Positions 36,328-64,000 of a stretch of 64,000 nucleotides of DNA are shown here, piece after piece. The stretch's first letter is position 1. Each line of letters begins with the position of its first letter. The notes below the pieces were generated by a model. It did not search any database. It worked only from the letters and a program-made list of their open reading frames with translations, and was not told the origin of the DNA. This DNA comes from an uncultured Croceitalea sp. Lineage in GTDB: Bacteria > Bacteroidota > Bacteroidia > Flavobacteriales > Flavobacteriaceae. A program made the position numbers and the translations under genes. The stretch spans positions 124,001 to 188,000 of the forward strand of contig CANMOV010000001.1 of assembly GCA_947499565.1 (NCBI GenBank), read 5' to 3'.

Positions 36328-36852
36328 TTATACTTCTACCAATAATTTGTGGAAAGATTTAATTTTTTCTGGTTCATTAGTTATTTTACCAATACAAGTT
36401 TGTAAAAAGCGATCAAACACTTCTTTTTCACTATTACTAAAACCTTCAGTCAAAAACATGATAACTGCTGAACGAGAAGGTTGTGCTCTGTTTACAAAAT
36501 CAATTCCTTTTTTTGTAAGCTCTAATCGCTTTTTTCTACGATCTTGCTCATCTTCGTACTGCCATATTAGATCTTTTTCTAAAAGCACATTTATAAGATT
36601 AGTAATATTAGCTCGCGAAACGTTTAAGGAATCTGCTAATTCACTTGCCATCAAAGCTTTTTTATGTTTTTCTCTTTTGAAAAAAGGAAGGTTAGGATTT
36701 TCAGCTAAATGAAGTAAAATAAGCCATTGTTGCGTAGTTAGACCAACTTTTTGGTATACTTCATCACCAATTTTTTTCAATTGATTTGCTAGTTCAAAAA
36801 TGTTAAGTACTATAGACTCTTCAATACTTTTTTCTATCATATTCTTTTTCAT
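36328..36852 (-). CDS. MarR-family transcriptional regulator
   Basis: This 174-residue winged-helix protein has an N-terminal dimerisation helix, TTQQWLILLHLAENP, the recognition-helix segment ASELADSLNVSRANITNLINVL at about 68-90, and the wing DEQDRRKKRLELTKKG. MarR proteins are usually repressors released by small, often aromatic or acidic ligands. It lies 40 bp downstream of the nitrilase gene and is probably co-transcribed from the promoter containing the TTAA-N5-TTAA element at 37946. It is the best candidate to bind that element throughout the island. Confidence 0.88.
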   Translation of the reverse strand: MKKNMIEKSIEESIVLNIFELANQLKKIGDEVYQKVGLTTQQWLILLHLAENPNLPFFKREKHKKALMASELADSLNVSRANITNLINVLLEKDLIWQYEDEQDRRKKRLELTKKGIDFVNRAQPSRSAVIMFLTEGFSNSEKEVFDRFLQTCIGKITNEPEKIKSFHKLLVEV

Positions 36853-36892
36853 TAAGTGGTGATAAGCATACGCTAAGATATGCTACATCGCC

Positions 36893-37912
36893 TTATTTTT
36901 GTAGGTTTTTTATAACCTTTAATTGTGTTTTTATAAACAATTCCTTAGATGGTTTTTCCTTTGCAAAACTGTTAGCTGGGTAATGGGTAAAGTTTGTATA
37001 AGAATCTGCATACAATTCAAAACGTTGTCTTGCATTATAATTTTGCATAGAAACTTTGGAACGATAGTCTCTTTGAGCCCCAATATCTAAATAACTGTTT
37101 GCTACCATACTTCCACCAGTTCCGGCCTCTGCCAAAACATGCCCTTCATAACTTATTATTTTTGATAGTCCATCGGTAGCAGCAAAGGGGAAATCTATTC
37201 CCGAAATACCCGCAGAATTTGCTGATACAACATAACACATATTCTCTATTGCTCTCGCTCTTTTTGCAACTTCCTTGTGTGTTAGTTTTGGACTTCCTGC
37301 TTCTGATGAAGAATGTAAAAATACTTCAGCTCCCCGCATCATTAGACACCTTGCTATTTCAGGATATAAAATTTCTTCAGAAGCTATACACGCTAATTTC
37401 CCTAATTTGGTCTCCACCACAGGGAAAAGAGATTCATATCCGTATACTTCTATATACGCATCCATAACATCATGTGGAGTAGGAGCGAACATAGAGTTTA
37501 ATCTTCGATATTTTAAAATTAGCTCACCTTTATCATCAATTATGAAGCTACTTTGAAAATAGAGATCTGGGAAATTATCATCTATTTCATAAAAATTGCC
37601 GGATAAAAAGATTTCATTCTTAACGCAGAATTCCCTCATTTGATTAAACAAATCGTCATTAGTAGTCAAGCAGGCTTTTTCCTTCCATTCTTCTAGACTC
37701 TCTCCAAATGGAAAACTGGTCAAAAAGTATTCTGGTAGCACAACTAGTTTTAAATCTGGACCAATAAATGCTTTTGAACCTCTGGTTTCTGCTAAAACCG
37801 TGTTGAGAGATTTTTGCATTAAATCATAAGCTGAAGCTCGGTTTTTGCAACTATTAATTGCAAAACATTCAGTTTGTAAGGCAAGCGCTTTATATCTCGA
37901 AATTAACTCCAA
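36893..37912 (-). CDS. Nitrilase-superfamily carbon-nitrogen hydrolase
   Basis: This 339-residue protein has the full catalytic set Glu61 (VVLPEYF), Lys134 (LILKYRR) and Cys175 (LACIASEE). There is no signal peptide, so it is cytoplasmic. Superfamily members hydrolyse amides, carbamoyl groups or nitriles. In this island it may release ammonia from an amide intermediate. A glutaminase partner domain is absent. The exact branch (amidase, ureidopropionase-like or nitrilase) cannot be told by eye. Confidence 0.82.
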   Translation of the reverse strand: MELISRYKALALQTECFAINSCKNRASAYDLMQKSLNTVLAETRGSKAFIGPDLKLVVLPEYFLTSFPFGESLEEWKEKACLTTNDDLFNQMREFCVKNEIFLSGNFYEIDDNFPDLYFQSSFIIDDKGELILKYRRLNSMFAPTPHDVMDAYIEVYGYESLFPVVETKLGKLACIASEEILYPEIARCLMMRGAEVFLHSSSEAGSPKLTHKEVAKRARAIENMCYVVSANSAGISGIDFPFAATDGLSKIISYEGHVLAEAGTGGSMVANSYLDIGAQRDYRSKVSMQNYNARQRFELYADSYTNFTHYPANSFAKEKPSKELFIKTQLKVIKNLQK

Positions 37913-37945
37913 TGAATTAGCTCTTTTTATAAGTTACGAAAATAA

Positions 37946-37958
37946 TTAATAATATTAA
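37946..37958 (-). promoter_or_regulatory. Candidate MarR operator E (single 13-mer)
   Basis: TTAATAATATTAA matches TTAA-N5-TTAA and lies 33 bp upstream of the nitrilase start. Read on the minus strand, the element is followed by TAACTTAT, close to a TAnnTTTG -7 box. The order and distance resemble the element and box in front of the ALDH gene. Function as the operator of the nitrilase-marR unit is inferred. Confidence 0.5.
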
Positions 37959-38025
37959 CTGTTTTGGCTTTCTTAGGGCTTATATCGATAAACTTCTCTT
38001 TATATCCATTAATAGAAATCAACTG

Positions 38026-39138
38026 TCAATCAGTTAGTTCAAATTCCAGTTTAGTTATTGGTTTGTTTTTTGGCTCATCAGTTTTCTCAATAATCTGCCA
38101 GCTTACTCCTGCAGTATCAGAAAATAGAAAAGATTGTTCCCCAAATTCATTTTTTAGTATTGGGGTAGGGTTTAATTTATGCCCACTTACCAGTTGATGA
38201 ACCATCTTAATTTTTGGTGTGTAAAATGAGTGTAGGGTAATTCCTTTTTCCCCAATTCGTTGGTGATTAGATTTATTAGTTTTATCTCCTCTAGGGATAA
38301 AAAATTTCAACTTTCCACAAATGTTATTTGGCGAAACAAAACCTTGATACCAATGGCTATAACCGGGTTCCATTTGAAAAACACGTTTAGGACCTTTTAG
38401 CCAATCACCATCAATAACAGGCTCATCTTCAGCCTGTAAACCCAAAGCAGAAGATAGATACGACATCTGCTCCATAGACTTTGCATTTATGATAAAATCA
38501 TGATGGGTAAACTCACTAGTTTTTAAAGGAGTTTCTGATTTAATAGTACCATACCCTGGAATTTTATAACCATATCGTTGAAAGAAAATGTGATTAAAAA
38601 ACTCTCCATAAACTGCATTTTCCCTAACCAAAACAGGGCGATTAAAAAAATCTCTTTCCCCAGTATTAAGTCCAAATAAATCGTCAGCAATTGGTTTTGT
38701 AGGCAACCAAGGCTTTTTTCCAACAGCCCTGGCAGTTTGGTAAATATCATAAAGTCTAAAAATATCCTTAGTCATCATTACGGCTATCCGTGAACCAATT
38801 GTCTCTACAGGAGCATAACCAATACCTTCTCCTAAGGGTTTCTCCCATTCTAGAATGCGTAAAAGCCCATGACTATCAATATTTCCATTTTGTAATCTAT
38901 AGGATGTAAGTTTAGAATTTACACCATAGATTTTTTGAGCTTCTTTTGAGGAAATAGTGCTACTATCAATAGTTTTAAAACCAAAATCTGCGAAGTACTT
39001 CTTTGCGTAATCGGCATTGTCCACGCCTATCATTACTTCATAAACCCCACTAATACCCGTTTCAGGTAAACTTTGTGAAATTGATGGAATAGCAATCATC
39101 GTGAATATTATTAAATATAGTGTGGTTAATGATTTCAT
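38026..39138 (-). CDS. Exported VOC (glyoxalase/dioxygenase-fold) protein
   Basis: This 370-residue protein has a signal peptide (cleavage near SISQS) and two or more VOC-like beta-alpha-beta modules: one at about 28-170 beginning YEVMIGVDNADYAKKYF, one at about 205-365 ending SFLFSDTAGVSWQIIEK. VOC proteins include ring-cleaving dioxygenases, lyases and ligand-binding forms. The metal ligands cannot be assigned with certainty by eye. It is co-transcribed with the upstream CurA-like gene (1-bp gap). Export suggests action on a substrate in the periplasm. Confidence 0.68.
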   Translation of the reverse strand: MKSLTTLYLIIFTMIAIPSISQSLPETGISGVYEVMIGVDNADYAKKYFADFGFKTIDSSTISSKEAQKIYGVNSKLTSYRLQNGNIDSHGLLRILEWEKPLGEGIGYAPVETIGSRIAVMMTKDIFRLYDIYQTARAVGKKPWLPTKPIADDLFGLNTGERDFFNRPVLVRENAVYGEFFNHIFFQRYGYKIPGYGTIKSETPLKTSEFTHHDFIINAKSMEQMSYLSSALGLQAEDEPVIDGDWLKGPKRVFQMEPGYSHWYQGFVSPNNICGKLKFFIPRGDKTNKSNHQRIGEKGITLHSFYTPKIKMVHQLVSGHKLNPTPILKNEFGEQSFLFSDTAGVSWQIIEKTDEPKNKPITKLEFELTD

Positions 39139-39139
39139 T

Positions 39140-40135
39140 TTAAGTTATTAATACTAGCTTGCCAAAGTTTTCACCAGTAAAAAGCATTTTGAGTGTTGGT
39201 ACATAATTATCCAATCCTTTAACTAAGTGTTCTTTTACATTAATTTTTCCATCAGCAATCCATCCGGACATTTCTTCTACCGCGGACGGCCATTCTTCGA
39301 TAAAGTCAAATACAATAATACCAGTCATATACCCTCTAGCACTTACTATTTTCATATAATTTTTTGGACCATATATATTTGCCATGTCGTTATATTGGGA
39401 AATTGCGCCACAGATAACTACCCTAGCACCTCTAGCCAGATTTAGTAAGGCAGTATCTAAAGTAGCCCCTCCAACATTATCATAAAAAATATTAATACCA
39501 TCCGGCGCATATTCTTTTAATTTTGCATCTAAATCTTCGGTTTTGTAGTTGATTGCATAATCAAAACCACATTCATCAACTAAAAATTTACATTTTGTAT
39601 CACTGCCAGCAGAACCTATAACTGTGCAACCTTTAATCTTGGCAATCTGTCCGACAGTAGAACCTACTACTCCTGAGGCAGCTGAAATATAAATAACTTC
39701 ACCACTTTTTGGCTCACCTCGTCGTAACAAGCCAAAATATGCGGTCATACCCGGCATGCCTAATACACCTAAATAATGGGAAAGTTTACCATGAGAAACA
39801 TTTATGACGCGTATTCCTTCCCCATTAGATATGGAATAAAGTTGAGTTCCCAAAAAACCTTCTACATAATCATCAACCGCAAAAGAATCATTTTTAGACT
39901 GTATTACTTTACCGGCAGAAAAGCTTCGCATCACAGCGCCAATTTCAATCCCTTTTATATACGTAGTACCTTCGTTCATCCAACCACGAATAGCTGGATC
40001 AAGTGAAATTGCTTCAATCTGCACAAGTATTTCACCGTCCTCAATTGCAGGAATTTCTTCTTCAACAATTTTGAAATTATTATCCGCTATCATACCATTT
40101 GGCCGGCTTGCCAAAGTAACTTTTCTATTAGTCAT
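39140..40135 (-). CDS. MDR-superfamily NADP-dependent double-bond reductase (CurA/PTGR-like)
   Basis: This 331-residue zinc-free medium-chain reductase has the LASRPNGM start and the IRGWMNE segment typical of the CurA/prostaglandin-reductase group, ISAASGVVGSTVGQIAKIKG as the cofactor loop, and FYDNVGG. The family reduces activated C=C bonds using NADPH. It is the first gene of the minus-strand unit diverging from the hydrolase gene at 40231, with the paired operator between them. It is paralogous to the gene at 53715-54734. Confidence 0.85.
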   Translation of the reverse strand: MTNRKVTLASRPNGMIADNNFKIVEEEIPAIEDGEILVQIEAISLDPAIRGWMNEGTTYIKGIEIGAVMRSFSAGKVIQSKNDSFAVDDYVEGFLGTQLYSISNGEGIRVINVSHGKLSHYLGVLGMPGMTAYFGLLRRGEPKSGEVIYISAASGVVGSTVGQIAKIKGCTVIGSAGSDTKCKFLVDECGFDYAINYKTEDLDAKLKEYAPDGINIFYDNVGGATLDTALLNLARGARVVICGAISQYNDMANIYGPKNYMKIVSARGYMTGIIVFDFIEEWPSAVEEMSGWIADGKINVKEHLVKGLDNYVPTLKMLFTGENFGKLVLIT

Positions 40136-40230: not shown

Positions 40231-41265
40231 TTGAGTAAAAGTAGAATAGTAACTATTGATGACCAAAAGCTGCATTTTTATACTATGGGTAAAGGTCCAG
40301 CATTAGTTATGATGCATCCTTCTCCCAGTAGTGCAGAATCTCTGTTGCCTTTGGCAAAGGAGCTTGCGGAAAACTTTACAGTTTTTTGTGTGGATACTCC
40401 GGGATATGGCAAGTCTGACCCGTTAGTAAAGAAGCCAGAAAACCTAAGAGATTATACACGTTTTTTAAATAAAGCCTTTTTTAAATTAGGTCTAGAGAAA
40501 CCGGCTTTATATGGCTCGGCTACTGGCGCTCAGTTGGCTATTCGCTATGGATTAGAATATCCTGAAGCTGTATCACATATTTTTTTGGATAACTCGGCTC
40601 ACTTTGATGATGACTTACGAGATAAAGTTTTGAAAAATTATTTCCCCGATTTAACCCCTAAAATAAATGGAAATCATCTCGATATTATTTGGACTATGGT
40701 TAGCCAAATGTTTCAATTTTTTCCGTGGTGTTTTACTACAGAAGAGTATGCTCTCAACAGACCGCAAATGCCCCTTGTTGTCTTGCAAATGGTTGCAATG
40801 GATTATCTAAAGGCGGGTGAGCATTATAATGTGGCTTATATGGCTGCTTTTAAACACGAGAAAGGAGAATTTGTTCAACAATTAAAAATTCCTACAACAA
40901 TATTTAGATGGAACAATAGTATAATTACTCCATATATAGACAGTCTATTGGCTTTTGAGTTACCGTCAAATATAAATGGTTTTTACATAGAAGGTGATGC
41001 TGCTGAAAGAAGTATGAAAATGACTTCGTTCATGAATAGTATTTCTAAACAAATACCAATTCATACGATTAAAGAATCAGCAATGGAAGTTCTTCCGGAT
41101 GAACAAGTAATTTATGTAAAGCCAACTACGTATCCACCAAAAATTGAAGCTACCGGAAAGTACTTGCATGATGCTTGGAACCAACTTGTATTAAGTAATA
41201 CTCATTTAAATGCTAAAGCAATACAAGAATCTTTAGTAGACTGGTATTCTTCTAATTCAGAATAG
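40231..41265 (+). CDS. Alpha/beta-hydrolase-fold protein lacking the nucleophile serine
   Basis: This 344-residue protein has an alpha/beta-hydrolase fold (ALVMMHPSPSS oxyanion strand, VDTPGYGKSD, then the nucleophile elbow). The elbow reads YGSATGA with Ala97 where GxSxG has its Ser, and the codon is plainly GCT. No convincing catalytic His motif is visible near the C-terminus. The gene starts with TTG at 40231 behind an AAAAGGA stretch. It may be a binding protein or use other chemistry, as in some cofactor-free members of the fold. It is first in a three-gene plus-strand operon. Confidence 0.72.
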   Translation: MSKSRIVTIDDQKLHFYTMGKGPALVMMHPSPSSAESLLPLAKELAENFTVFCVDTPGYGKSDPLVKKPENLRDYTRFLNKAFFKLGLEKPALYGSATGAQLAIRYGLEYPEAVSHIFLDNSAHFDDDLRDKVLKNYFPDLTPKINGNHLDIIWTMVSQMFQFFPWCFTTEEYALNRPQMPLVVLQMVAMDYLKAGEHYNVAYMAAFKHEKGEFVQQLKIPTTIFRWNNSIITPYIDSLLAFELPSNINGFYIEGDAAERSMKMTSFMNSISKQIPIHTIKESAMEVLPDEQVIYVKPTTYPPKIEATGKYLHDAWNQLVLSNTHLNAKAIQESLVDWYSSNSE

Positions 41266-41270: not shown

Positions 41271-42035
41271 ATGAGAAATTTAATAATTATAATACTAATA
41301 AGTACAAGCTTCTTGTCTTGTAAAAAGACAATGGATCAAGTGCCAAAACCTCAAAAAGAAGATGCTACCATAATAGGTCACTGGGATAATTTTCAACAGT
41401 ATTGGTTAGAGAACACAAAAACTAAAATTCACCGCGTTGAAACGGATGATAAACACCGTCATTTATCTTTAGATATTAATGAAAGCTCAAATGACAAAGA
41501 AATTATCATTGAGATTAGGGAAGGAAGAAATGGAAAATCTTTAGTCGAGAAAATGACGATTCGAAAAGAAGATTTAACGGAATTTGTTTTAGACCATAAC
41601 GCAGATACCCTATTCATAAGTGGAATGAAACACTTTAAAAATAGTCAACCTTACAAGTTTATCCGTACACGTAAATTTTCTGGATGGTTAGAATACCCAA
41701 TGCAACAATTTAAAGATAGTGTGTACAGAAAAAGCAATTTGGAGATTCATGACCAAGGCGGTATGGCAGAAATAAATATCGATGGAGTGCACTACACTGC
41801 GGAGTTAACACAATTGTTATTCGGGCATAAACTTCCTATTATGAAATTGGCTATTTATAATATGCCTATGGATAGTGTTCAAATAAACAGTCGTTCCATT
41901 AGCTATACTTGGCTTAATCCAGATGCAAAAAGGACAGGAATTAATTTGCGAAAAATAATTACTGGGTGGACGTTTATCGAACCTGGATATATAAATTCTG
42001 ATAATACAAAGTTTAGCAAGAAAGAAGATGATTAA
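41271..42035 (+). CDS. Lipoprotein sharing the C-terminal domain of a CpcT/CpeT-like protein
   Basis: This 254-residue protein has a lipobox (SFLSC near 17). Its C-terminal part (from about residue 140: W-EYPMQQF...LEIHDQGG, then DGVHYTAEL and NPDAKRTG) resembles residues about 225-335 of the protein at 62795-63811 (DILIHDQGG, DGKTYKVQL, PDPDKAG). The N-terminal half (GHWDNFQQYW...HRH) faintly recalls the CpcT WF.GEFDN motif. It may be a distant member of the same ligand-binding group. The function is not known. It starts 5 bp after the hydrolase gene. Confidence 0.62.
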   Translation: MRNLIIIILISTSFLSCKKTMDQVPKPQKEDATIIGHWDNFQQYWLENTKTKIHRVETDDKHRHLSLDINESSNDKEIIIEIREGRNGKSLVEKMTIRKEDLTEFVLDHNADTLFISGMKHFKNSQPYKFIRTRKFSGWLEYPMQQFKDSVYRKSNLEIHDQGGMAEINIDGVHYTAELTQLLFGHKLPIMKLAIYNMPMDSVQINSRSISYTWLNPDAKRTGINLRKIITGWTFIEPGYINSDNTKFSKKEDD

Positions 42036-42774
42036 GGCAAAATATGAAATAGAAAAAGTCTTTATTGTCATTGTTGGAGCCAATAGTGGTATTGGACAGG
42101 CCTTGATAAAACAACTTGTGGAAGCCAAGGCTTCAGTCTTTGGCATTGATATTCAAAAAGAAACTAGGACTACAACCTCTAAAACATATCAATATTTTAC
42201 TGCCAATCCATTAGATAAGGATGATTTGGTTAAAGTAATTCAAAACATTGAGGAAGAAACGGCTCAAATTAATGGATTGGTAAATCTATCGGGGACCATA
42301 ACTCAGTTTAAAACAATTGCCGATATTTCCTTTGAGGAATGGAATGAAACCTATGATATAAGCTTTAAAAGTTGTTTTAATGCTTGTAAAGCATTCATTC
42401 CATTAATGAAGAATTCATCCAATCCATGCATTGTAAATATGTCTTCAGGGCTTGCTTTTATAGGCCAAAAGAATTATGGTCCCTATAGTGCGGCAAAAGC
42501 AGCTGTTATTAGTTTTAGTAAGACATTGGCGGCAGAATTAGCTCCAGAAATAAGAGTAAATACCGTTGCGCCAGGTGCGGTAGATACGAACTTCATTTAT
42601 AAAGAAGATGGCTCCACCAGATTTGATAAAGAAGTTTATAAAGGTTTAGTTCCACTAGGAACCATGGCTAAAGCAGAGGAGATTGGTTCTGTGATTTTAT
42701 TTTTATTGAGCGATGCAGCTTCTCATATTACAGGGCAATGCATTCACGTAAATGGGGGGGCTGGAATGCATTAA
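42028..42774 (+). CDS. SDR-family oxidoreductase
   Basis: This 248-residue classical SDR has GANSGIGQAL as the cofactor motif, NLSGT in place of NNAG, catalytic Ser (NMSSGL) and YSAAK. It ends with the typical GQCIHVNGGAGMH. Its start overlaps the end of the lipoprotein gene by 8 bp, so translation is probably coupled. The substrate is unknown; a hydroxyl/keto step in the island's pathway is likely. A run of seven G lies near its 3' end. Confidence 0.85.
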   Translation: MIKAKYEIEKVFIVIVGANSGIGQALIKQLVEAKASVFGIDIQKETRTTTSKTYQYFTANPLDKDDLVKVIQNIEEETAQINGLVNLSGTITQFKTIADISFEEWNETYDISFKSCFNACKAFIPLMKNSSNPCIVNMSSGLAFIGQKNYGPYSAAKAAVISFSKTLAAELAPEIRVNTVAPGAVDTNFIYKEDGSTRFDKEVYKGLVPLGTMAKAEEIGSVILFLLSDAASHITGQCIHVNGGAGMH

Positions 42775-42793: not shown

Positions 42794-43690
42794 CTACACT
42801 TTTTCTTCTCTAAGAATCATTCTTTTGTAAATAAAAATAACCCCAATTGCTAAAACACTCATTACTACGCCGTAAACTCCAGGAGTCGCTGCCATTTCAG
42901 GACTATTAAGTAAACTTGGCGACATTGCAAGTGTCATTCCTAAGACATTGTTTTGCATACCACTTTCAATAGAAATAGTCGCAGCTTGTTTAGTAGATAA
43001 CTTTATAGACTTGGCACTTATAAAACCTATTGCTAAGGTGAAAAAATTTAGTAAGACTACACTAAAGAAGGCAGCTTTAAGAAAGGACCAACTATCGCCA
43101 ATCTCCTCTAATTTTAAAACCATAAAAATCAATGCCAGTATTATAACTGTAATAGATCCCCATTTAATAACTGGTTTTCCTTTTTCTGCCGACTTTGGAA
43201 ATTTATAGTTTAAAAACATCCCTAAAAAGACTGGAAGTGCAGTAAGTTTAAAAATATTAAATATAGTTCTCCCTAGAGGCAGCTGAATACTTTTAGAAGC
43301 TTCCCCAAGAATGGTATCCAAAGAAAAATTAATAATAAGGGGAATAGTAAATATGGTCACAATACTGCTAATTGCAGTTAATGTAATCGAAAGTGCTGTA
43401 TCACCCTTTGATAAATATGAAAATAAATTAGATACTGCTCCACCAGGGCTGCATGCACAAACCATTAAACCCATTGCCATTATGGGTTCCATAGGAACTA
43501 ATATAACGATACCATATGCAATTAATGGAACAAGTATAATTTGATTTACTAAACCTGTAATTACCGCTTTCGGTGCTATACCTACTCTTGTAAAATCAGG
43601 TACTGTTAACGTCATCCCCATTCCAAACATGACTAAAAAAAGGAGTACTTGTAAAATGTAAGGAATATAACTCGAAAGGATATCTGTCAT
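42794..43690 (-). CDS. BASS-family organic-anion:sodium symporter
   Basis: This 298-residue protein has about nine to ten membrane helices. The family motifs are CACSPGGAVSNLFSYL near 78 and the crossover region SIESGMQNNVLGM near 240. The family imports organic anions such as bile acids, pantoate, pyruvate and 2-keto acids with sodium. It is the last gene of the ten-gene operon, so it may import or exchange a dicarboxylate or an imide/half-amide. It converges with the SDR gene. Confidence 0.85.
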   Translation of the reverse strand: MTDILSSYIPYILQVLLFLVMFGMGMTLTVPDFTRVGIAPKAVITGLVNQIILVPLIAYGIVILVPMEPIMAMGLMVCACSPGGAVSNLFSYLSKGDTALSITLTAISSIVTIFTIPLIINFSLDTILGEASKSIQLPLGRTIFNIFKLTALPVFLGMFLNYKFPKSAEKGKPVIKWGSITVIILALIFMVLKLEEIGDSWSFLKAAFFSVVLLNFFTLAIGFISAKSIKLSTKQAATISIESGMQNNVLGMTLAMSPSLLNSPEMAATPGVYGVVMSVLAIGVIFIYKRMILREEKV

Positions 43691-43701
43691 TTACCGCTTA
43701 A

Positions 43702-45565: not shown

Positions 45566-45569
45566 TTAA

Positions 45570-46247: not shown

Positions 46248-46256
46248 GAGTTTAAG

Positions 46257-46706
46257 CTATTTTTTCTTTTTCTCTTTTATTTTTGATGATTGCATCGAAA
46301 TAATTTTCCAAGAACCTTCATGTATTTTCCATACCGTGGTTAGGCGAAATTTCCCCTTTGGAAAATCCTTATATTTTCTTTCGTTAATATAATTAGAAAT
46401 GATTACATCGTCTGCTACTTTTAAAAGAACAATATCAGAATTTTGATAGCTTTCAAAAGTGTTCTTGATATTAATTAAGGCTACCTTTTTGTTGTATTTT
46501 TTTCCGCTTTGAGAAGTGAGCATTAAATCCGGATGATATAGTCTATTTGCTAAAGAGCTATCACTATGCAGATGCGCTATTTTTAGACTATCTATTTGGT
46601 TGAGGATTTGGCCTTTGATTTCTGGAGTTATTTCTTGGGCGCTAATACTAAAAGAAAAAAGTATTGTGCATAGTAGGAGGCTTATATTTTTAAAAACAAT
46701 TTTCAA
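46257..46706 (-). CDS. Exported NTF2-like (DUF4440-type) protein
   Basis: This 149-residue protein has a signal peptide (cleavage near SISAQ) and one NTF2-like cone fold: helix, LYHPDLMLTSQSGK, strands, then FRLTTVWKIHEGSWKIISMQSS. The family binds or isomerises small hydrophobic ligands, or has no known activity. It is embedded between the amidase and CoA-transferase genes, and is the only exported product of this operon besides the transporter. Confidence 0.72.
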   Translation of the reverse strand: MKIVFKNISLLLCTILFSFSISAQEITPEIKGQILNQIDSLKIAHLHSDSSLANRLYHPDLMLTSQSGKKYNKKVALINIKNTFESYQNSDIVLLKVADDVIISNYINERKYKDFPKGKFRLTTVWKIHEGSWKIISMQSSKIKEKKKK

Positions 46707-46708
46707 TT

Positions 46709-48452: not shown

Positions 48453-48454
48453 TA

Positions 48455-56239: not shown

Positions 56240-57492
56240 ACAATTTCTTTAACAGGTTGGATTTTTGGTATAAATACCATTACTATTAATGCGGATAGGA
56301 CATGTAAAAATGCTACTATTACAAATACAGGGGAATAAGAAATGGTGTCTACAAGCCAGCCAATAAGGGGAGTAAATAACATAGCTCCAAAGCTACCAGC
56401 GGAACCAGAAATCCCCCAAACTGATGCAGCGTCTTTTTTTGGGAATAGATCAATAGGCAATGTGAAAAGTGAAGCCTGTTTAAATTGTGTAGCAAAAAGC
56501 GCAAAACTTATAAGTGCGATTGCCCAGTACGCAGATTCTACATATAAACAGCCTAGTATGGGAATTACAAGTAATGCTCCAATCCATATTACTCGTTTTC
56601 TTGATGAATCTAAAGACACTTTTCTTCTTATTAAATGACTGCTATACCATCCGCCTACAAAACTCCCCAAATCAGCAAGAACAAAAGGTATCCAAGCAAA
56701 TAGGGCAATATCGGTTAGACTAAATCCTTTAGCATCCGTAAGCCACGATGGTAACCAGAATACAAAGAAGTAAAACACACCATCTGACACAAAACGTGAT
56801 AATGCTATACCCCAGACTTGTTTGTATTTAAAATAGCTTAACCACGGTGTTTTTTTAGATGTAACTACTTTTCTACCATCCTCTTGAATATGTGCTAATT
56901 CCTCCCTAGAAATCTTTGGATGTTTATCTGGTGAGTAGTAAATCCATTTCCATAAAATTAACCAGACAAACCCTAAAGCCCCAGTTATTACAAAAGCTAA
57001 TTTCCATCCAAATGCCAAAATCAACCAAGCCATTAGTGGAGGAGCAATAATGGCTCCCATTCCCGGTCCCATATTTAAGATACCTACAGCTTTGCTTTTT
57101 TCTCTCTTTGGAAACCATTCAGAAATTGCTTTCATGGCTGCAGGATAATTGCCAGCTTCACCAATACCTAATAAAAATCTAAATAGCCCAAGACTAGCCA
57201 TACTATTTCCAAAGGCATGTAGCATATTAGCTATGGACCACCATACAACAGCTAGGCTAAATCCTTTTTTTGTTCCTATTTTGTCAATGACTATACCGGA
57301 AGCTAATTGCATTATAGCATATGCTAATAAGAAAGCACTAACTATCCAACCATACTGTTCGTTAGAAAGACCTAGGTCTTCTTTTATGACCGGGGCAGCT
57401 ACAGATAATGCTTGTCTATCTATATAATTAATTGTGGTTGCTAAGAAAATGGTGCCAACAATGTACCATCTCAAGTTTTTTTTAAAAATCAT
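56236..57492 (-). CDS. MFS transporter, ACS/organic-anion type
   Basis: This 418-residue protein has 12 membrane helices and the ACS motifs NYIDRQALS and GEAGNYPAAMKA. It is a paralogue of the alginate-locus transporter at 5233. It is first gene of the operon with the CpcT-like, LolA-like and two MDR genes, so it probably imports an organic anion related to their substrate. No TTAA-N5-TTAA element precedes it. Confidence 0.85.
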   Translation of the reverse strand: MIFKKNLRWYIVGTIFLATTINYIDRQALSVAAPVIKEDLGLSNEQYGWIVSAFLLAYAIMQLASGIVIDKIGTKKGFSLAVVWWSIANMLHAFGNSMASLGLFRFLLGIGEAGNYPAAMKAISEWFPKREKSKAVGILNMGPGMGAIIAPPLMAWLILAFGWKLAFVITGALGFVWLILWKWIYYSPDKHPKISREELAHIQEDGRKVVTSKKTPWLSYFKYKQVWGIALSRFVSDGVFYFFVFWLPSWLTDAKGFSLTDIALFAWIPFVLADLGSFVGGWYSSHLIRRKVSLDSSRKRVIWIGALLVIPILGCLYVESAYWAIALISFALFATQFKQASLFTLPIDLFPKKDAASVWGISGSAGSFGAMLFTPLIGWLVDTISYSPVFVIVAFLHVLSALIVMVFIPKIQPVKEIV

Positions 57493-57583: not shown

Positions 57584-58144
57584 TTACTTTTTTATGTACT
57601 CATACATTTGTATGCGCACCCCATTTGGATCTAGTACAGCTAATGTCATAGATTTACCAGTGGCAGATGGGGTTAATGGAGCGACTATAGGTATATTATT
57701 GGCTTGCATCATCTTTTCAATCTTTTTTAGATTCTTTACGGAAAATGCCACCATGAGCTCACTAGCTATAGGTGCTCTTGCTCCCATTTGTTTTAATTGA
57801 GTTTCCGCTGCCTCAGGAATTTCAATTAAGTTAATGCCCATGATTATGTTTTCTTTAGAAAATGTAGCAGGTACAAGTGCCACGTATGTTAATGATTTTT
57901 GGCCAGTAACACCAAAATTCGCAAGACCTCCAGGCGTATCTATTTGAATACGTTTACGCTCTTTAAAACCTAAAAAATCTTCATAAAACTTTATGCTGGC
58001 TTTCAAGTCTTTAGTTACAAAAGCCATACCCGAAACCGTAGCATTAATATCTTCATCTGTAATTTTTGACACCTCTGATTGTGCATTTAATTGAGAGATA
58101 CTAAGTAAGTTCGCAAGTATTATTATTGTGAATACTTTTTTCAT
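57584..58144 (-). CDS. Exported single-domain VOC protein
   Basis: This 186-residue protein starts at the ATG at 58144, where a signal peptide begins (MKKVFTIIILANLL, cleavage near LNAQ). The frame is open to 58201, but those residues do not suit a signal. One VOC unit runs from about 28 to 185 (GMAFVTKDLKASIKFYEDFLGF to VLDPNGVRIQMYEY). The first metal-ligand position is not His, so it may bind a ligand rather than catalyse. It sits between the MFS operon and the TonB-receptor gene. Confidence 0.74.
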   Translation of the reverse strand: MKKVFTIIILANLLSISQLNAQSEVSKITDEDINATVSGMAFVTKDLKASIKFYEDFLGFKERKRIQIDTPGGLANFGVTGQKSLTYVALVPATFSKENIIMGINLIEIPEAAETQLKQMGARAPIASELMVAFSVKNLKKIEKMMQANNIPIVAPLTPSATGKSMTLAVLDPNGVRIQMYEYIKK

Positions 58145-58265
58145 TGTACGGCATATATTGGTTAATCTAATTTTAATTCTGCAAAGCGCCCTTAAATCCA
58201 TTTCTTATTGATGAATAAATTCGTTTTTATATTCTTTTAGCTAAATAGGAAGTCTTAATTAACAA

Positions 58266-58322: not shown

Positions 58323-60971
58323 TTAAAATTGATATCCTACGGTAAATAATACTCTTTTCGGATTTTGAAAAACTGCAGATGATATTCTACCTGCTCTTGT
58401 TGGGTTGTTTTGTAGCTCTACTAAACCGGCATCAGTATTTTGACCACCTACAACAAGTTGTCTAGCATTTGCTCCATCAAACAAATTCTTAATACGCATA
58501 CTAAACCTTAGTTGATTTGAACCTAAAGGAAAAGTATAGTAGGCTCCAAAGTTATACTCTGATATGGTTGGTAACTCATAAAGATTTAAAGCATCAGCAT
58601 ATCCACCTGAATACGTGAAACCTCCAAAATCTGCACCCCATCTAGAGGCATTGTACCCAATATTTATGTTGTAAATTGTTGGAGGTCTGTTCTGTGCTTT
58701 CAATCCTTCAAGATTAATACCTGCTTCATCTCCTGATCCTACTAAATTAAGACCAAAAAGATCACCGCTTTGATCAACTCCGCTACCTACTGGAACAAAG
58801 AATTCTTCATATTCAGAATTTTGAAGCGTTAAAGAACCTCTAACTAATAGACCTCTTATTGCTTTTGGGGTGTATACTGCGGCGAATTCACCACCAAATA
58901 TTTTGTTTGAACCAGCTGGTCTTTCAACAAATTCTCCAAGACCACCGTCAAATATTGTAGCAGTTCTATTGTCGATTTTAGTATTAAATATTGTAAAATC
59001 TAGCGTTAAATCCCCCAGTCCTGCTCTATAGCCCACTTCAAAGTTATTTACAACTTCGTTGTCATCTGGCAGTTCTGTTGTCAAATTAATAGAACCTGGT
59101 AAGGAAAATGCGCGAACATAATTAGCATAAATAGCTGAAGATTCTCCTAATAAATAGTTGGCACCAATGGAATAGGAAAGATCATTAAACTTCAATTCAT
59201 TTTCCTCAAATGTTGCTGGATTAAAATCCACACCTGTATCGCGTATTTCTTCAGGGTCGTTGTTAAATCTATGCTTTAACCAGTCATAACGAAACGCAAG
59301 GTTTAAACTAAGCTTTTCATTAAATACCATTTCATCACCAATAAAGAGCCCAGTACTTGTCTCTTGTCTGTTAGACGACGTATTAGATATGTATGAAGTT
59401 GCTGGTGGCTGTGGAAACCCAAAGGAACCTGTACTGAACCCAAATGAATTTCCAACTGTTGGATTCCTGAAATCTACACTGGAACCATAAATAAAGTTAA
59501 CGCCCAAACGATCTCTGTTGGCATTACTAAAATAAAGACCTCCACTTATATTATGCTCAGCCGTGGCACCTTTTATTTGCTTAGAAATTCTATGCTCAGT
59601 AATCCAAGTTCTATTCTGATTGTTCGCTTCTCCGTTAAACCTGCTAACTGTTGAATTTACATCATAAAAGGTAGAGAAATTAAACTCATTGATATCATTG
59701 TATCTAAAATCATTATACCTAACTCTTTCATTCCAGAACCAACCATTACCTAAATCAAAATTCAAATCTATTCCTACGCTGGCACCTTGAGTTTTTTCTC
59801 TATTTCTTCCGGGTCTATCGGTTAAGGTATTACCACTTGCATCTGTTGCAAGTGCTGTATTGAAAAACCCTTGTCTAACATTTAGTTGACCAAACGCTGT
59901 AGTTAGATTACTTGCATCATTAAAAAAGGCATTTGCAGGATGCCATCCATCAAGAATTCTTTCGTTTTCTAAATCCCAGGGCGCATCGGTGATGTTTTGG
60001 AACTGATTGTTGAAAGCACTTGCATAAAGTCGTATTGATGAAGTTTCTGATAATAGATAGTCAAAATTTGCTCTTACTTGTGCTCCTCTATCCTTTGCAA
60101 ACTGCTCCTTAACTCCAGAATCTTCTAAAACATAGCCACCAATATTATAGCGTAATTTATCGCTTATGGGCCCGTTAAAGTTCATATCAACTCTATAATC
60201 AACTTCATCTTCGAACTGATGTCCTGCCCTTGAATTATTGCTATATTTTGTCATGGAAAAAGAGCCATGATGCTCTGTTCCACCTGTTTTTGAAATAATA
60301 TTAATTGCACCTGCAGCAGAAGCTCTACCAAAAAGGGTAGCGGCTGCACCTCTTACGACCTCTATATTTTGAACATTCTGATCAATACCATAGAATTCTT
60401 GGGTTCCTCCAGACTGCACGGCAATACCAGATACAGGCAAACCATCAATTAAAGTTGTCGTATAAATTGAACCTCCAGGAAAGCCCCGTATATTAAAGCC
60501 ACCTTTTCTACCTTGCGTTTCATCAATGATAACACCTGGAGTATTTTGGATAGCTTCTGTAAATGATTCTGCTTTTAAAGTAGCTAATTCTTCGGTTCCA
60601 ATACTGTTAATAGCTGTAGTAGCCTGCAGTTTTCGAACTGGCTTTCTAGTTGATGAAACTACAACTTCGTCTAATAAACTAACATTTTCTTTTAATTGTG
60701 CATTTACCACATTACCAGTTACCGAGATTCTTTGAGTTTGATAGCCGATGTAAGAGAAAATAAGCACGTCGCCAGTTGAAGCAGAAATGCTATAATTACC
60801 ATCATCATCTGAAGTGGTACCAGTATTAGTGCCCTGAACCTGAATTGTGGCTCCTAAGATTCCAATGCCGTCTTCATCTGTCACCTTACCAGTTACAGTG
60901 TTTTGAGCAAAAACTCCTGTTGTACAGCACAAAAAGCTGACTAAACAGATAAAATTTAAGATTTTTTTCAT
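58323..60971 (-). CDS. TonB-dependent receptor without a SusD partner
   Basis: This 882-residue protein has a signal peptide (cleavage near VFAQ), a carboxypeptidase-D-like regulatory domain at about 24-105 (TGKVTDEDGIGILGATIQV), a plug at about 115-230 (SFTEAIQNTPGVIIDE, VEVVRGAAATLFGRASAAGAIN) and a beta-barrel ending in the usual aromatic VLFTVGYQF. No susD gene is adjacent, so it is more like receptors for siderophores, cobalamin or other small ligands. It is divergent from the DUF1838-like gene, with two paired operators between. In this island it may import a tetrapyrrole-type ligand (inference). Confidence 0.88.
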   Translation of the reverse strand: MKKILNFICLVSFLCCTTGVFAQNTVTGKVTDEDGIGILGATIQVQGTNTGTTSDDDGNYSISASTGDVLIFSYIGYQTQRISVTGNVVNAQLKENVSLLDEVVVSSTRKPVRKLQATTAINSIGTEELATLKAESFTEAIQNTPGVIIDETQGRKGGFNIRGFPGGSIYTTTLIDGLPVSGIAVQSGGTQEFYGIDQNVQNIEVVRGAAATLFGRASAAGAINIISKTGGTEHHGSFSMTKYSNNSRAGHQFEDEVDYRVDMNFNGPISDKLRYNIGGYVLEDSGVKEQFAKDRGAQVRANFDYLLSETSSIRLYASAFNNQFQNITDAPWDLENERILDGWHPANAFFNDASNLTTAFGQLNVRQGFFNTALATDASGNTLTDRPGRNREKTQGASVGIDLNFDLGNGWFWNERVRYNDFRYNDINEFNFSTFYDVNSTVSRFNGEANNQNRTWITEHRISKQIKGATAEHNISGGLYFSNANRDRLGVNFIYGSSVDFRNPTVGNSFGFSTGSFGFPQPPATSYISNTSSNRQETSTGLFIGDEMVFNEKLSLNLAFRYDWLKHRFNNDPEEIRDTGVDFNPATFEENELKFNDLSYSIGANYLLGESSAIYANYVRAFSLPGSINLTTELPDDNEVVNNFEVGYRAGLGDLTLDFTIFNTKIDNRTATIFDGGLGEFVERPAGSNKIFGGEFAAVYTPKAIRGLLVRGSLTLQNSEYEEFFVPVGSGVDQSGDLFGLNLVGSGDEAGINLEGLKAQNRPPTIYNINIGYNASRWGADFGGFTYSGGYADALNLYELPTISEYNFGAYYTFPLGSNQLRFSMRIKNLFDGANARQLVVGGQNTDAGLVELQNNPTRAGRISSAVFQNPKRVLFTVGYQF

Positions 60972-61307: not shown

Positions 61308-61371
61308 CTTTTAGTATTTTGCAATGGAATTGGCACTAAATAATTACCTGGATTACTATAAAAACATAAAT

Positions 61372-62268
61372 ATGAAATTGATGAAAACAAAATTTTTAAT
61401 AGGAATACTTTTAATTACGGCTCTTATAAGTTGTAAAAAACAAATGAATACTGGTCCTGAAGACGGGACAAACACAACTATGGAAATTGCTGTTCATCCA
61501 TGGGCTGAAAAAGCCTCTTACCAAGCTGCTCCAGATGTTTTAAAAAATTGGGTAGATGCGCGTGCGGGTACAGGCGAGCCTGTGCATTGGGTTGCAGATG
61601 GTGCGGTTTATGAATATCCTTCGGGAAAAAAACTTTTTGGAATGATTGGTTTTGATAGCTCTACTATTATTTGGCCTGATGAAGCTGATGGAAAAGTTAT
61701 CCATTTAACACGTAAAACATTTGCCTATACAGATCCAGTAACTGGAGAAGTAATAACAGATTATAATGGTCAAGAGGTAAAGCCTATAGCGTACCCTTAC
61801 CAAATGATTACTTATAGGTTAGAAAATGATAGAATTTATGGTGATGTAGAGCAAGGAGTTGGCGAGCGTGTTCAAATTATTAAATCTGAGGATGGTATTC
61901 CATATCGTAAAATGGGTAGCGGTTATATATACAATGCCCAAGTGTATTTAGATTTCCCCCTTCCCACAGGAAAGCAATATCAAGCATGGGAAAACTATGA
62001 TTTTTTTATTCAACCAGAGGGTAGTGTAGATGAACCACATCAAATGGCATGGCAACGCTATGGTTCTTTACCACCATGGGCGGGTATGCCAGATACTAAG
62101 GCTATTATTCAATTACATTCGTGGCGTGTTGAAAGTCATGAAGAGTTTCCTGAAAAATTGTTGTCCTGGGCAAAGGAGAATAAACCTAAATGGCTAAATC
62201 CACCAAAAGATGTGGCGGAGGTGAGGGCCCTGCAGAATGGAGAAGCCGGTGATGGTTGGGGAAGATAA
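61372..62268 (+). CDS. DUF1838-like secreted lipoprotein
   Basis: From the ATG at 61372 the 298-residue product has a good lipoprotein signal (lipobox LISC). The longer frame from 61324 would add a non-signal extension lying over the likely promoter. The body is beta-rich with repeated sugar- or lipocalin-like strands (VHWVADGAVYEYPSGKKLF, YPYQMITYRLENDRIYG, PHQMAWQRYGSLPPWAGMPD) and matches my memory of DUF1838, a family without known function. It is transcribed alone, divergent from the TonB receptor, and followed by a strong terminator. Confidence 0.65.
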   Translation: MKLMKTKFLIGILLITALISCKKQMNTGPEDGTNTTMEIAVHPWAEKASYQAAPDVLKNWVDARAGTGEPVHWVADGAVYEYPSGKKLFGMIGFDSSTIIWPDEADGKVIHLTRKTFAYTDPVTGEVITDYNGQEVKPIAYPYQMITYRLENDRIYGDVEQGVGERVQIIKSEDGIPYRKMGSGYIYNAQVYLDFPLPTGKQYQAWENYDFFIQPEGSVDEPHQMAWQRYGSLPPWAGMPDTKAIIQLHSWRVESHEEFPEKLLSWAKENKPKWLNPPKDVAEVRALQNGEAGDGWGR

Positions 62269-62304: not shown

Positions 62305-62328
62305 ATAATTTGAATACCGAATATTAGT

Positions 62329-62763
62329 TTATTTAGTCTCCTCCTTTAAATATTCGATGAGAACATCCTGTTGCTCTTTATTTTTAATGCCAATAAAAGC
62401 CATAATAGTGCCAGGAACATAGTCTGTTGGTTTTTCTAACCACGCTCTAATATGATCTTCGTTCCAAACAATGTCAGATTTTTTAAGTGCTTCTGAATAA
62501 GCAAAACCTTCTAATGAGGCTGCTTTTCTTCCAAAAATGCCATGTAAGTTTGGACCAACTTTATTGGGTTCACCTTTCTTTAGATTATGGCAGGCAGCAC
62601 ATTGTATAAATGCTTTAGCTCCTGGAGATAGTTTTGCTATAGGCTTTTTTTGGCTTGTCTCCGTCTTAGGTCTTTTAACCAGAGACTCTTCTTTCTTCTC
62701 AGCTTTGCTTCCGCAAGATGCCATAGCGAATGCTAATGCCGAGGTAAAAATTATTTTTTTCAT
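62329..62763 (-). CDS. Class I cytochrome c lipoprotein
   Basis: This 144-residue lipoprotein (lipobox MASC near 17) has one heme site, Cys55-x-x-Cys58-His59 (CAACHN). A GPNLHGIFGRKA segment is typical of mitochondrial-type cytochromes c, and the axial ligand Met121 lies in PGTIMAF. It lies last in a minus-strand unit with a CpcT-like gene and a flavin amine-oxidase-like gene, which suggests it accepts electrons from the flavoenzyme in the periplasm. Confidence 0.88.
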   Translation of the reverse strand: MKKIIFTSALAFAMASCGSKAEKKEESLVKRPKTETSQKKPIAKLSPGAKAFIQCAACHNLKKGEPNKVGPNLHGIFGRKAASLEGFAYSEALKKSDIVWNEDHIRAWLEKPTDYVPGTIMAFIGIKNKEQQDVLIEYLKEETK

Positions 62764-62794
62764 GTACTACTATTTATTCAATCCTTCTTAATTA

Positions 62795-63811
62795 CTATTT
62801 ACTTTCTACTTTTTCACATACGCATGACGCCCATCCCATCTGAAACCCTGCTTTATCTGGATCAGGTTGTGCGAATGCCAAGGCTACTGAAGCACGTTGC
62901 CCTTTTTCTATTAGGCGAACCATAAAAAAGTCTGAACCTTCTTTGTAAAATGGATACTGTTTTTCTCGTAACTGGACTTTATATGTTTTGCCATCAACAG
63001 GATTCTCAAAAAAACGAGAACCACCTTGGTCATGAATCAGAATATCATTGTAGCGTTTGTCTTTTTCGCTTGGTAAGTAATACGCTTTTTCGTGAAAAGC
63101 AATATCACAACTGTACCAATCTACTTTTCGCATTTTATGTGGAATGTCATTTGGATGCCCTTTATAAAAGGAATTATCCTTAACCAAGTAGGTCTGGTCA
63201 ACCCGCCAATATTGATTCTCCGAAATAATCATATCATGCACCGAATATCGTTTTAAGTCACCTTCACCAAACTGACACGATTTGTCTTTCATACTGCCAT
63301 GGTACTGTTCACCAATCCTTTTGAAAAAGACGTTACATCCATCCAAGCCAAAGAGGCTTTCTTTTTTTAAACCATCAAAAACTTTTGGTGTAGCATAGGT
63401 CCCCAAATATTTTTTAGAATCCCTTAAAAAATAAAGCTCCATTTCAATAGTTTCTTTGGGAGCGTTACTTTTAAAATTAACTATTCTTTGTCGCCCAACT
63501 TTGGTGGAATCACCTCCTGTGTACTCTTCAATATAAAAAACATATTCACCAATTTCAGGTGCATTTATGCGGGTATGAATTACATGAATGCGCTCATGCT
63601 TTTCCTCTTCTTTTCCAGGCCATCCACCACGACCTTCATACCAGTTTTGAGAATCGTTATCAAATTCGCCTTCAAACCACTTTGAAAGCAGTAAAAGATC
63701 TCTAACATTAGGGTCACTAGATTGCGCTATGCCATTAAAACTTCCAAGAAATATTACTAGAATGGCCAGAAAGCCGGTATTCAAGTTTGAGTTCATTTTA
63801 AATTTTTTCAT
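62795..63811 (-). CDS. CpcT/CpeT-like exported protein with C-terminal extension
   Basis: This 338-residue protein has a signal peptide (cleavage near GIAQS; starts at 63811 or the Met at 63796). The CpcT/CpeT domain at about 38-215 has LSKWFEGEFDNDSQ, ERIHVIHTRI, EEYTGGDSTKVGRQR and LDGCNVFFKRIGEQYHG plus a late Cys (KSCQF). An extra domain from about 225 (IHDQGG, YKVQLREKQYPF, PDPDKAGF) is shared with the lipoprotein at 41271. Bilin or related tetrapyrrole binding is inferred from the family. It lies between genes for a flavoenzyme and a cytochrome c. Confidence 0.75.
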   Translation of the reverse strand: MKKFKMNSNLNTGFLAILVIFLGSFNGIAQSSDPNVRDLLLLSKWFEGEFDNDSQNWYEGRGGWPGKEEEKHERIHVIHTRINAPEIGEYVFYIEEYTGGDSTKVGRQRIVNFKSNAPKETIEMELYFLRDSKKYLGTYATPKVFDGLKKESLFGLDGCNVFFKRIGEQYHGSMKDKSCQFGEGDLKRYSVHDMIISENQYWRVDQTYLVKDNSFYKGHPNDIPHKMRKVDWYSCDIAFHEKAYYLPSEKDKRYNDILIHDQGGSRFFENPVDGKTYKVQLREKQYPFYKEGSDFFMVRLIEKGQRASVALAFAQPDPDKAGFQMGWASCVCEKVESK

Positions 63812-63840
63812 GTATTTCCGTTAAATAAAGCGATTCTTTT

Positions 63841-64000
63841 TTATGCTTCCATTATAATCTCTAGGGCAGCTCGTTCGCCAGATTCAAAAGCACCTTCCAT
63901 GCCACGTTCCATAATTGCGGTGTGTTCACCACAGAAATGAATATTGCCATGTCTTGGACGCATGTTGTTTCCAAACTTTGTTACTTGGCCTGGTTGCCAA
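63841..64000 (-). CDS. Flavin-containing amine oxidase-like protein, C-terminal end (5' partial)
   Basis: A minus-strand frame enters from the right edge and stops with TAA at 63841-63843, giving the last 52 residues. They contain HFCGEHTA and MEGAFESGERAALEII, the FAD-contacting C-terminal signature of the monoamine oxidase/protoporphyrinogen oxidase/phytoene desaturase superfamily. The start, any signal peptide and most of the FAD domain are outside the window. It lies 29 bp before the CpcT-like gene and is likely in one operon with it and the cytochrome c gene. Confidence 0.8.
   Translation of the reverse strand, partial: WQPGQVTKFGNNMRPRHGNIHFCGEHTAIMERGMEGAFESGERAALEIIMEA

Follow-up and report, generated by a model that had tools for sequence, protein, structure and literature searches.

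Gene content of the catabolic island

The stretch of DNA considered here, referred to as the window, comprises 64,000 nucleotides (C1:124001-188000) of the 3.88-Mb draft genome of an uncultured Croceitalea sp. and holds about a third of a catabolic island of ~77 kb. The island runs from a MarR-type regulator gene (36328-36852, minus strand; PF12802/PF01047 above cut-off), which occupies the same island end in Croceitalea, Aquimarina and Maribacter loci, to about C1:236974, that is ~49 kb beyond the end of the window. An initial annotation, in which the island was read as catabolic for bilins or other tetrapyrroles, had its start right at 36328; the end it gave, 64000, is the window edge. The island combines a predicted cyclic-imide operon with exported relatives of the phycobilin lyases CpcT and CpeT and with exported oxidoreductases, and the chances are evenly balanced that it constitutes a complete system for the catabolism of pigments of the tetrapyrrole type, derived from the bilins or chlorophyll of algae or cyanobacteria. 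Coordinates without prefix refer to the window; those prefixed L005 to L008 refer to the contig to its right, whose gene content was obtained from Pfam and NCBIfam scans and from reading of translations.

The core of the island is a run of ten genes (42794-51104, all on the minus strand). It consists of a transporter of the bile-acid:sodium-symporter family (SBF; 42794-43690; PF01758), two PuuE-like hydrolases of the NodB type that are predicted to act on cyclic amides or imides, namely imidase B (43702-44628) and imidase A (44612-45565; both PF01522), an isochorismatase-family amidase that we propose to be a maleamate-type amidohydrolase (45570-46247; PF00857), an exported DUF4440 (NTF2-like) protein (46257-46706; PF14534, 27.1 bits vs 25.2), a class III CoA-transferase (46709-47890; PF02515, 363 bits), a carboxymuconolactone-decarboxylase/AhpD-type (CMD) protein (47883-48452; PF02627), the small subunit LeuD1 (48455-48964; TIGR02087) and the large subunit LeuC1 (48966-50201; TIGR01343 and TIGR02086 above cut-off) of a short LeuCD/homoaconitase-type hydratase, and an HMG-CoA-lyase-like (HMGL-like; DRE-TIM) C-C lyase (50202-51104; NF004283).

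Imidases A and B score 97.4 and 105 bits, respectively, against the PuuE allantoinase model TIGR03212, far below its equivalog cut-off of 424.6; the best solved relative of imidase A is the PuuE allantoinase 3cl6, with which the imidases have the fold family in common. The best solved relatives of the amidase are 4l07/4l08, N-carbamoylsarcosine amidohydrolases and 3ot4/3uao, of which we take 4l07/4l08 and 3uao to be maleamate amidohydrolases, 3uao presumably being the maleamate amidase NicF of nicotinate breakdown; the equivalog cut-offs of RutB (25.7 vs 377.95 bits) and biuret hydrolase (26.1 vs 370) are not reached. The CoA-transferase resembles formyl-, succinate-glutarate and mesaconate CoA-transferases, each below cut-off. 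Within the LeuD/DmdB family of short small subunits (TIGR02087, cut-off 108.95), LeuD1 scores 202.7 bits and thus belongs to it, and LeuD2, from a second LeuCD pair (C1:206292-207560 and 208928-209452), stays below with 88.2 bits; solved relatives of LeuD1 are 3vba and 2pkp. Both large subunits remain under the cut-off of 610.65 of the leucine isopropylmalate isomerase equivalog TIGR02083 (LeuC1 464, LeuC2 445 bits), and the host has its own pair elsewhere, a leuC-type gene at C1:903913 next to one of the leuD type, from which LeuCD1 is distinct. Judged by these profiles, LeuCD1 is of the short homoaconitase/DmdB kind. A lysine of LeuD1 at the homoaconitase arginine site was considered as a sign of a third carboxylate (a propionate side chain); it is not used as evidence, because the host's ordinary LeuD and 2hcu, a solved LeuD that is likewise ordinary, share it. 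The HMGL-like lyase exceeds the cut-off of the HMG-CoA lyase subfamily NF004283 (286.7 bits vs 246), the substrate assignment being a prediction from sequence; its best solved relatives are HMG-CoA lyases, with homocitrate synthase 6ktq more distant.

A second group of genes encodes CpeT-like proteins. The two exported copies that had been recognised in the window are both above the PF06206 cut-off: the lipoprotein CpeT1 (55517-56239, minus strand; 91 bits vs 21) and the two-domain protein CpeT2 (62795-63811, minus strand; 76 bits). Two further copies follow at C1:192866-193600 and 193648-194706. In the genome-wide profile search the four copies score 91.2, 77.8, 66.4 and 58.2 bits against the same cut-off of 21, and all carry N-terminal export or lipoprotein signals (judged by eye). 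The proposed domain sharing by a third lipoprotein (41271-42035, plus strand; no Pfam match) is borne out, as its residues 104-238 align with the second domain of CpeT2 (profile comparison with hhalign, probability 99.8). The N-terminal domain of CpeT2 yields a family profile that recovers CpcT (4o4o/4o4s) at 1.1e-20, and the AlphaFold2 model of CpeT2 (pLDDT 90.8) matches the CpcT-phycocyanobilin complex 4o4s in Foldseek at 5.3e-11 with TMt 0.79, a check of the beta-barrel fold that covers CpeT2, one of the four copies. The island proteins share sequence family and fold with the phycobilin lyases (PF06206; CpcT 4o4o/4o4s, phage CpeT 5hi8), and two cysteines invariant in the CpeT2 alignment line up with CpcT cysteines. 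Unlike these lyases, they are exported, often have an extra C-terminal domain and are clustered with catabolic enzymes; their scores (58-91 bits) are below the 124-177 bits of the single copies of most CpeT-bearing relatives. The island also encodes a DUF3598_N protein (C1:203546-204058; just over cut-off, 24.8 vs 22 bits), from a family that we take to be a calycin relative of the bilin lyases. The protein encoded at L007:7198-7770 reaches an hhalign probability of 34 at best against CpeT.

A third group comprises predicted oxidoreductases and uptake proteins. Three flavin amine oxidases (FAO) with Tat-like N-termini are encoded at C1:187841-189343, 191351-192853 and 207563-208915. The pairing of such an oxidase with a cytochrome c, noted from the window, is real: FAO1 is represented there by its C-terminal end (63841-64000, minus strand; the last ~53 codons) and runs on to C1:189343 (full gene L005:1342-2844; PF01593, 177 bits), and an exported cytochrome c is encoded at 62329-62763 (minus strand; PF00034). 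Adjoining the latter is a gene for an exported DUF1838 protein (61324-62268, plus strand; PF08894, 39 bits vs 25), unnamed in the initial annotation. Among the proteins then called exported VOC proteins, the assignment holds for 57584-58201 (minus strand; VOC/glyoxalase fold, PF00903); the exported protein at 38026-39138 (minus strand) has no Pfam match. The three reductases are confirmed and are of the medium-chain type, two of them curcumin-reductase-like double-bond reductases (39140-40135, PF16884 and PF00107; 53715-54734, PF16884) and one quinone-oxidoreductase-like (52714-53718, PF00107 and PF08240), all on the minus strand. The TonB-dependent receptor (58323-60971, minus strand; PF00593, PF07715, PF13715) is a lone one, as none of the scanned genes near it is SusD-like, and an MFS transporter is encoded at 56236-57492 (minus strand; PF07690). 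To the right of the window the island further contains two more DUF1838 proteins, several VOC proteins, an HpaI-like aldolase, HyuA and HyuB, a fumarate-reductase-like flavoprotein, a methyltransferase and a second carbon-nitrogen (C-N) hydrolase. HyuA scores 554 bits against the caprolactamase alpha model NF050156, under its equivalog cut-off of 1000. Also part of the island, as named by reading of translations, are genes for the E1 and E2 components of pyruvate dehydrogenase, for a biotin-dependent carboxylase of the propionyl-CoA type and for the two subunits of methylmalonyl-CoA mutase.

All four CpeT and all three DUF1838 matches of the 3.88-Mb genome fall inside the island, as do the three best genomic matches to the amine-oxidase family, and clustering to this extent is not due to chance. 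CpeT is a minority gene: it is matched in 37 of 295 genomes of the class, in none of the 8 same-family genomes listed and, among 14 control genomes, only in Synechococcus elongatus.

Conservation and linkage of the imidase genes

When the genome contig collection was searched with imidase A, 473 pattern matches were obtained and 409 relatives were confirmed; the analysis is based on the best 80 of these relatives (75-94% identity). They include loci from Croceitalea, Maribacter, Aquimarina, Saprospiraceae, Microbulbifer, Alteromonas, Paraglaciecola, Marinobacter, the gamma proteobacterium NOR5-3, a Halieaceae metagenome-assembled genome (MAG), Billgrantia, Terasakiella and others. The order amidase-imidase A-imidase B, in the following the trio, is found in 76 of the 80 loci (two more begin at the locus edge, two are permuted), and imidase B directly follows imidase A in 78. 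Named strains bearing the trio are Maribacter vaceletii, M. algarum, NOR5-3, Psychrosphaera sp. F3M07 and Alteromonas lipolytica. Of the 60 loci over 18 kb, 42 have a LeuC homologue (25-95% identity to LeuC1) no more than ~10 kb from the imidase; roughly half of these homologues are 25-42% identical.

Most of the island is found, rearranged, in Croceitalea, Aquimarina, Maribacter vaceletii, other flavobacteria and one Saprospiraceae MAG, its proteins being mostly 45-95% identical across these Bacteroidota. In Gammaproteobacteria a smaller set surrounds the trio, consisting of LeuCD, CpeT, VOC, FAO, short-chain dehydrogenase (SDR), methyltransferase, a weakly DUF3108-like protein and CoA-transferases. 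Fourteen wide clusters were compared; they were selected partly for CpeT near the imidase, and the frequency of CpeT in them is for this reason not evidence. The exported protein at 38026-39138 has relatives in 4 of the Bacteroidota clusters and 2 of the proteobacterial ones, and the TonB receptor in 5 of the Bacteroidota clusters.

The C-C lyase associated with the trio differs between lineages. The class III CoA-transferase and the HMGL-like lyase form the downstream pair in flavobacteria and NOR5-3; a PrpB-like lyase adjoins LeuCD near the trio in Psychrosphaera; and a CoA-transferase, a RipB-like hydratase and a RipC-like lyase are found near it in Alteromonas lipolytica. The PrpB-like and RipB/RipC-like enzymes, which resemble methylisocitrate lyase and the itaconate system RipABC, are all under their equivalog cut-offs. 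Enzymes of the HMGL, PrpB and RipC types, as well as those of the LeuCD types, act on branched or alkyl-substituted di- or tricarboxylates. With varied lyases attached to the same trio, the simplest common substrate would be an alkyl-substituted maleimide, and the swapping of lyases between lineages strengthens this half of the pathway, as it fits 2,3-disubstituted maleimides being cut to 2-oxo acids and propionyl-CoA. On these grounds we consider the alkyl-maleimide half of the pathway probable.

The link to CpeT was followed at the genome level, as the initial annotation had suggested, and the outcome favours that annotation: imidase A and CpeT occur together in each of the three families tested and are often physically linked. 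In the NOR5-3 family (140 genomes; imidase scored at E<=1e-80), 30 genomes have the imidase, 23 have CpeT and 16 have both; CpeT is thus present in 16 of 30 imidase-bearing vs 7 of 110 other genomes (Fisher p=3.7e-8). The corresponding numbers for the family of Paraglaciecola sp. 20A4 (246 genomes) are 27, 27 and 15, with CpeT in 15/27 vs 12/219 (p=4.5e-10), and in Maribacter's family (249 genomes) CpeT is found in 3/3 vs 17/246 (p=4.5e-4); the tests disregard shared ancestry and these p-values are therefore too small, a reservation to which the recurring physical linkage is not subject. Among the 16 pairs of the NOR5-3 family, 3 lie within 20 kb on one contig, 1 at 204 kb and 12 on separate contigs; among the 15 pairs of the Paraglaciecola family, 10 lie within 40 kb, 1 at 101 kb and 4 on separate contigs. 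In Maribacter's family the 17 genomes without the imidase have one high-scoring CpeT each (124-167 bits), and the 3 with it have three low-scoring copies each (57-85 bits). A further genome-level search, for which 50 of the 80 best loci were chosen, covered 49 imidase-bearing genomes, and CpeT is matched in 25 of these, including 8 of 8 flavobacterial genomes; the ten-gene run is present in one of the latter, that of Aquimarina sp. RZ0 (L054), whose sole CpeT is a high-scoring copy (135 bits) on another contig.

In MAGs of Billgrantia, Marinobacter, Terasakiella and Methylocystaceae (L109, L102, L079, L076, L083, L108, L092) the trio stands beside LeuCD and a fumarate-reductase-like flavoprotein, in L109 also with TRAP-like genes (by reading). 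No CpeT is present in the genomes of L109, L102, L079, L076 and L083, those of L108 and L092 being outside the search. The organisms of all seven loci are perhaps users of free maleimides. A Lysobacterales MAG (loci L078, L176) has 7 CpeT matches on several contigs; within the 20 kb read at L176, CpeT lies beside FAO and cytochrome c, without the trio.

Proposed pathway and alternative explanations

From the observed gene content, families, conservation and linkage we infer all substrates and the order of steps as follows. The pigment would be captured by the TonB receptor and the exported CpeT-like proteins and oxidised outside the cytoplasm by the flavin amine oxidases with cytochrome c, the VOC proteins and DUF1838, giving mono- or dipyrrolic lactams and imides that the MFS and SBF transporters would bring into the cell. 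Side-chain double bonds would be reduced by the medium-chain reductases, and lactams opened by the caprolactamase-like HyuAB and the C-N hydrolases. Imidases A and B may open 2,3-disubstituted maleimides such as hematinic acid and methyl-ethyl-maleimide, the isochorismatase-type amidase would release ammonia, and the two LeuCD-type enzymes would hydrate the resulting alkyl-maleates, which could then be cleaved by the CoA-transferase and the HMGL-like lyase, perhaps by the HpaI-like aldolase in the second set. Hematinic acid, once opened, equals a methyl-homoaconitate; hydration of the homoaconitase kind and a retro-Claisen cleavage of the HMGL kind would yield 2-oxoglutarate and propionyl-CoA, and ethyl-methyl-maleate would yield 2-oxobutyrate and propionyl-CoA. 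These products would enter central metabolism via pyruvate dehydrogenase (as a 2-oxo-acid dehydrogenase), propionyl-CoA carboxylase and methylmalonyl-CoA mutase.

Parts of this scheme have known counterparts. Cyclic-imide degradation, as described from work on a soil bacterium, likewise proceeds by an imide hydrolase and then a half-amidase; the island differs in joining a PuuE/NodB-type imidase pair to a hydratase and lyase of the alkyl-maleate type. The nicotinate-fermentation enzymes DmdAB and dimethylmalate lyase likewise employ a LeuCD-type hydratase on a 2,3-disubstituted maleate and then a lyase; LeuD1 falls within the NCBIfam family that includes DmdB, and in the island a CoA-transferase and an HMGL-type enzyme take the place of the lyase and imides would feed the route.

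The chemistry expected upstream is documented for plants and heme: PMC7318184 describes oxidation of tetrapyrroles to propentdyopents, maleimides and hematinic acid, intermediates that would also be expected here, and it cites hematinic acid and methyl-ethyl- and methyl-vinyl-maleimides as chlorophyll and heme oxidation products from senescent leaves and lake sediments; its own leaf samples contained hematinic acid and no maleimides. It puts chlorophyll production and degradation on a scale of 10^12 kg per year. Unlike that route, the island has no recognised PAO-type enzyme and would go on to mineralise the maleimides. Transformation of nickel and vanadyl porphyrins by the shale bacterium LM27 (PMC8669743) shows that bacteria are reported to break tetrapyrroles to single-pyrrole products, with maleimides discussed; the portion of that paper at hand names general oxygenases and dehydrogenases from (meta)proteomes and describes no dedicated cluster like the island. 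Among the matches listed from the literature searched, in which subscription journals are largely absent and relevant papers may be missed, no bacterial gene set is described that takes tetrapyrroles or their maleimides into central metabolism. The enzyme families are already known; the assembled pathway is absent from the matches listed.

Several observations weigh against a pigment as the source, in addition to the shared ancestry behind the Fisher tests. Membership in the CpeT family is no proof of bilin binding, and the plant CRL protein is also matched by the CpeT2 profile and model. FAO1 is nearest to monoamine oxidases. The model of DUF1838 is good (pLDDT 87.8) and gives only low-TM Foldseek matches, none convincing; a lipocalin fold for DUF1838 was tried and rejected on these matches and on profile comparisons with CpeT, which, among those listed, were null except for a signal-peptide match. 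No ring-opening gene of the heme oxygenase, PAO or dechelatase type is found among the Pfam-scanned island proteins, a set that is not exhaustive and was not extended to a genome-wide search. The imidase occurs without CpeT in 24 of the 49 genomes, and within families in 14/30 (NOR5-3) and 12/27 (Paraglaciecola), so the imide module also exists without CpeT. Conversely, CpeT is present and the imidase absent in 7 NOR5-3-family genomes and in 12 Paraglaciecola-family genomes (CpeT high-scoring in 3, low-scoring in 9). Frequent occurrence of the operon without CpeT-like genes and with a different known substrate had been named beforehand as telling against the pigment; the former applies to the core trio, with the 24 of 49 genomes, and no different known substrate turned up. 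The tetrapyrrole proposal as first made is partly supported: its maleimide half has gained strength, and the scanned proteins supply no ring-opening enzyme. We lean slightly towards a tetrapyrrole, either a bilin or a chlorophyll, as the source of the imides.

An alternative substrate is another complex N-heterocycle (of alkaloid, pyridine or pyrimidine type). In that case the ring opened by the imidases would be a cyclic imide or ureide, and the CpeT-like proteins would carry hydrophobic ligands in general. The solved relatives of FAO1 are in keeping with this, namely MAO-B and, more weakly, 5ttj, which we take to be the nicotine oxidoreductase NicA2 that uses a cytochrome c; the exported flavoprotein and cytochrome c of the island recall that pair. 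The same can be said of the likeness of HyuA to caprolactamase, of the amidase to N-carbamoylsarcosine amidohydrolase and the presumed NicF, and of the frequent absence of CpeT beside imidases. Four CpeT paralogues and the DUF3598 protein would, however, be left unexplained, as would the recurrent enzymes of homoaconitase, methylisocitrate and itaconate type, which point to alkyl-branched unsaturated dicarboxylates, and we regard an N-heterocycle of this sort as unlikely.

The same 24 of 49 genomes with the trio and without CpeT, together with the 7 and 12 genomes with CpeT alone, would also be expected if two separate systems were neighbours, a cyclic-imide operon (42794-51104) and a CpeT/FAO/DUF1838 island for a pigment, quinone or terpenoid; in addition, the position of the blocks with respect to one another is altered in Flavo301, Maribacter and Aquimarina. 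The recurrence of trio-CpeT linkage in two proteobacterial families and in Bacteroidota makes such a coincidence improbable. CpeT1 is also present in 6/6 wide clusters of Bacteroidota, a count that is not independent, as the clusters were chosen partly for nearby CpeT.

Since the downstream chemistry as inferred needs only a disubstituted maleimide, the place of chlorophyll or bilins could be taken by a different alkyl-substituted pyrrole, such as a prodigiosin-like pigment; pigments of this kind are far rarer in the sea and many marine lineages carry the module, which leaves this substrate with little credit. A role of the CpeT-like proteins in pigment assembly (as chromophore lyases) or in the turnover of endogenous heme, suggested by the family name and the CpcT fold match, is hardly credible given the export or lipoprotein signals of all four copies and their setting among catabolic genes.

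Extending the tetrapyrrole pathway to the relatives, we tentatively propose, at just short of an even chance, a horizontally shared pathway of marine Bacteroidota and Proteobacteria that mineralises chlorophyll- or bilin-type pigments via maleimides, with interchangeable C-C lyases and with CpeT-lacking relatives living on free maleimides. If true, this would give roles to DUF1838, to exported CpeT-like proteins and to several VOC proteins. With genes, strains and predicted products named, the users of pigment nitrogen and carbon in the sea become directly testable.

Other genes of the island and its surroundings

The remaining genes of the island within the window encode a carbon-nitrogen hydrolase of the amidase/nitrilase type (36893-37912, minus strand; PF00795, 89 bits), whose best NCBIfam matches, formamidase and aliphatic amidase, are under cut-offs; an alpha/beta hydrolase (40231-41265, plus strand; PF00561); a short-chain dehydrogenase (42028-42774, plus strand; PF13561); an aldehyde dehydrogenase family protein (51290-52711, plus strand; PF00171); and a lipoprotein adjoining CpeT1 (54731-55501, minus strand), which has no Pfam match above cut-off and occurs in 7 of the 14 wide clusters. 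Beyond the window, an exported protein with an FGE-sulfatase domain (L005:2871-3821) lies inside the island and adjoins FAO1 or CpeT3 in relatives; as no sulfatase is seen among the island genes read, it possibly has another role.

A tRNA-borne island or one with regulatory RNA was considered and rejected: there is no Rfam match at 34000-64000, no tRNA in the window and no G+C step at the left edge. To the left of the island, the window contains an alginate-use locus (2259-11106) with two alginate-lyase-2 proteins (PF08787), a GntR/FCD regulator, a PfkB-type kinase, a KDPG-type aldolase and an Nramp-family transporter, between which an MFS transporter and two SDR genes are found (named by reading). 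It is followed by a polysaccharide-synthesis cluster (11198-36000, by reading) of nucleotide-sugar enzymes, glycosyltransferases, polymerase- or flippase-like proteins and chain-length proteins, which encloses a DUF4842/DUF4114 lipoprotein (24886-26838). Just right of the island end, L008:6502-16991 encodes two very large RHS/YD-repeat-like proteins of 1246 and 2245 aa (by reading).

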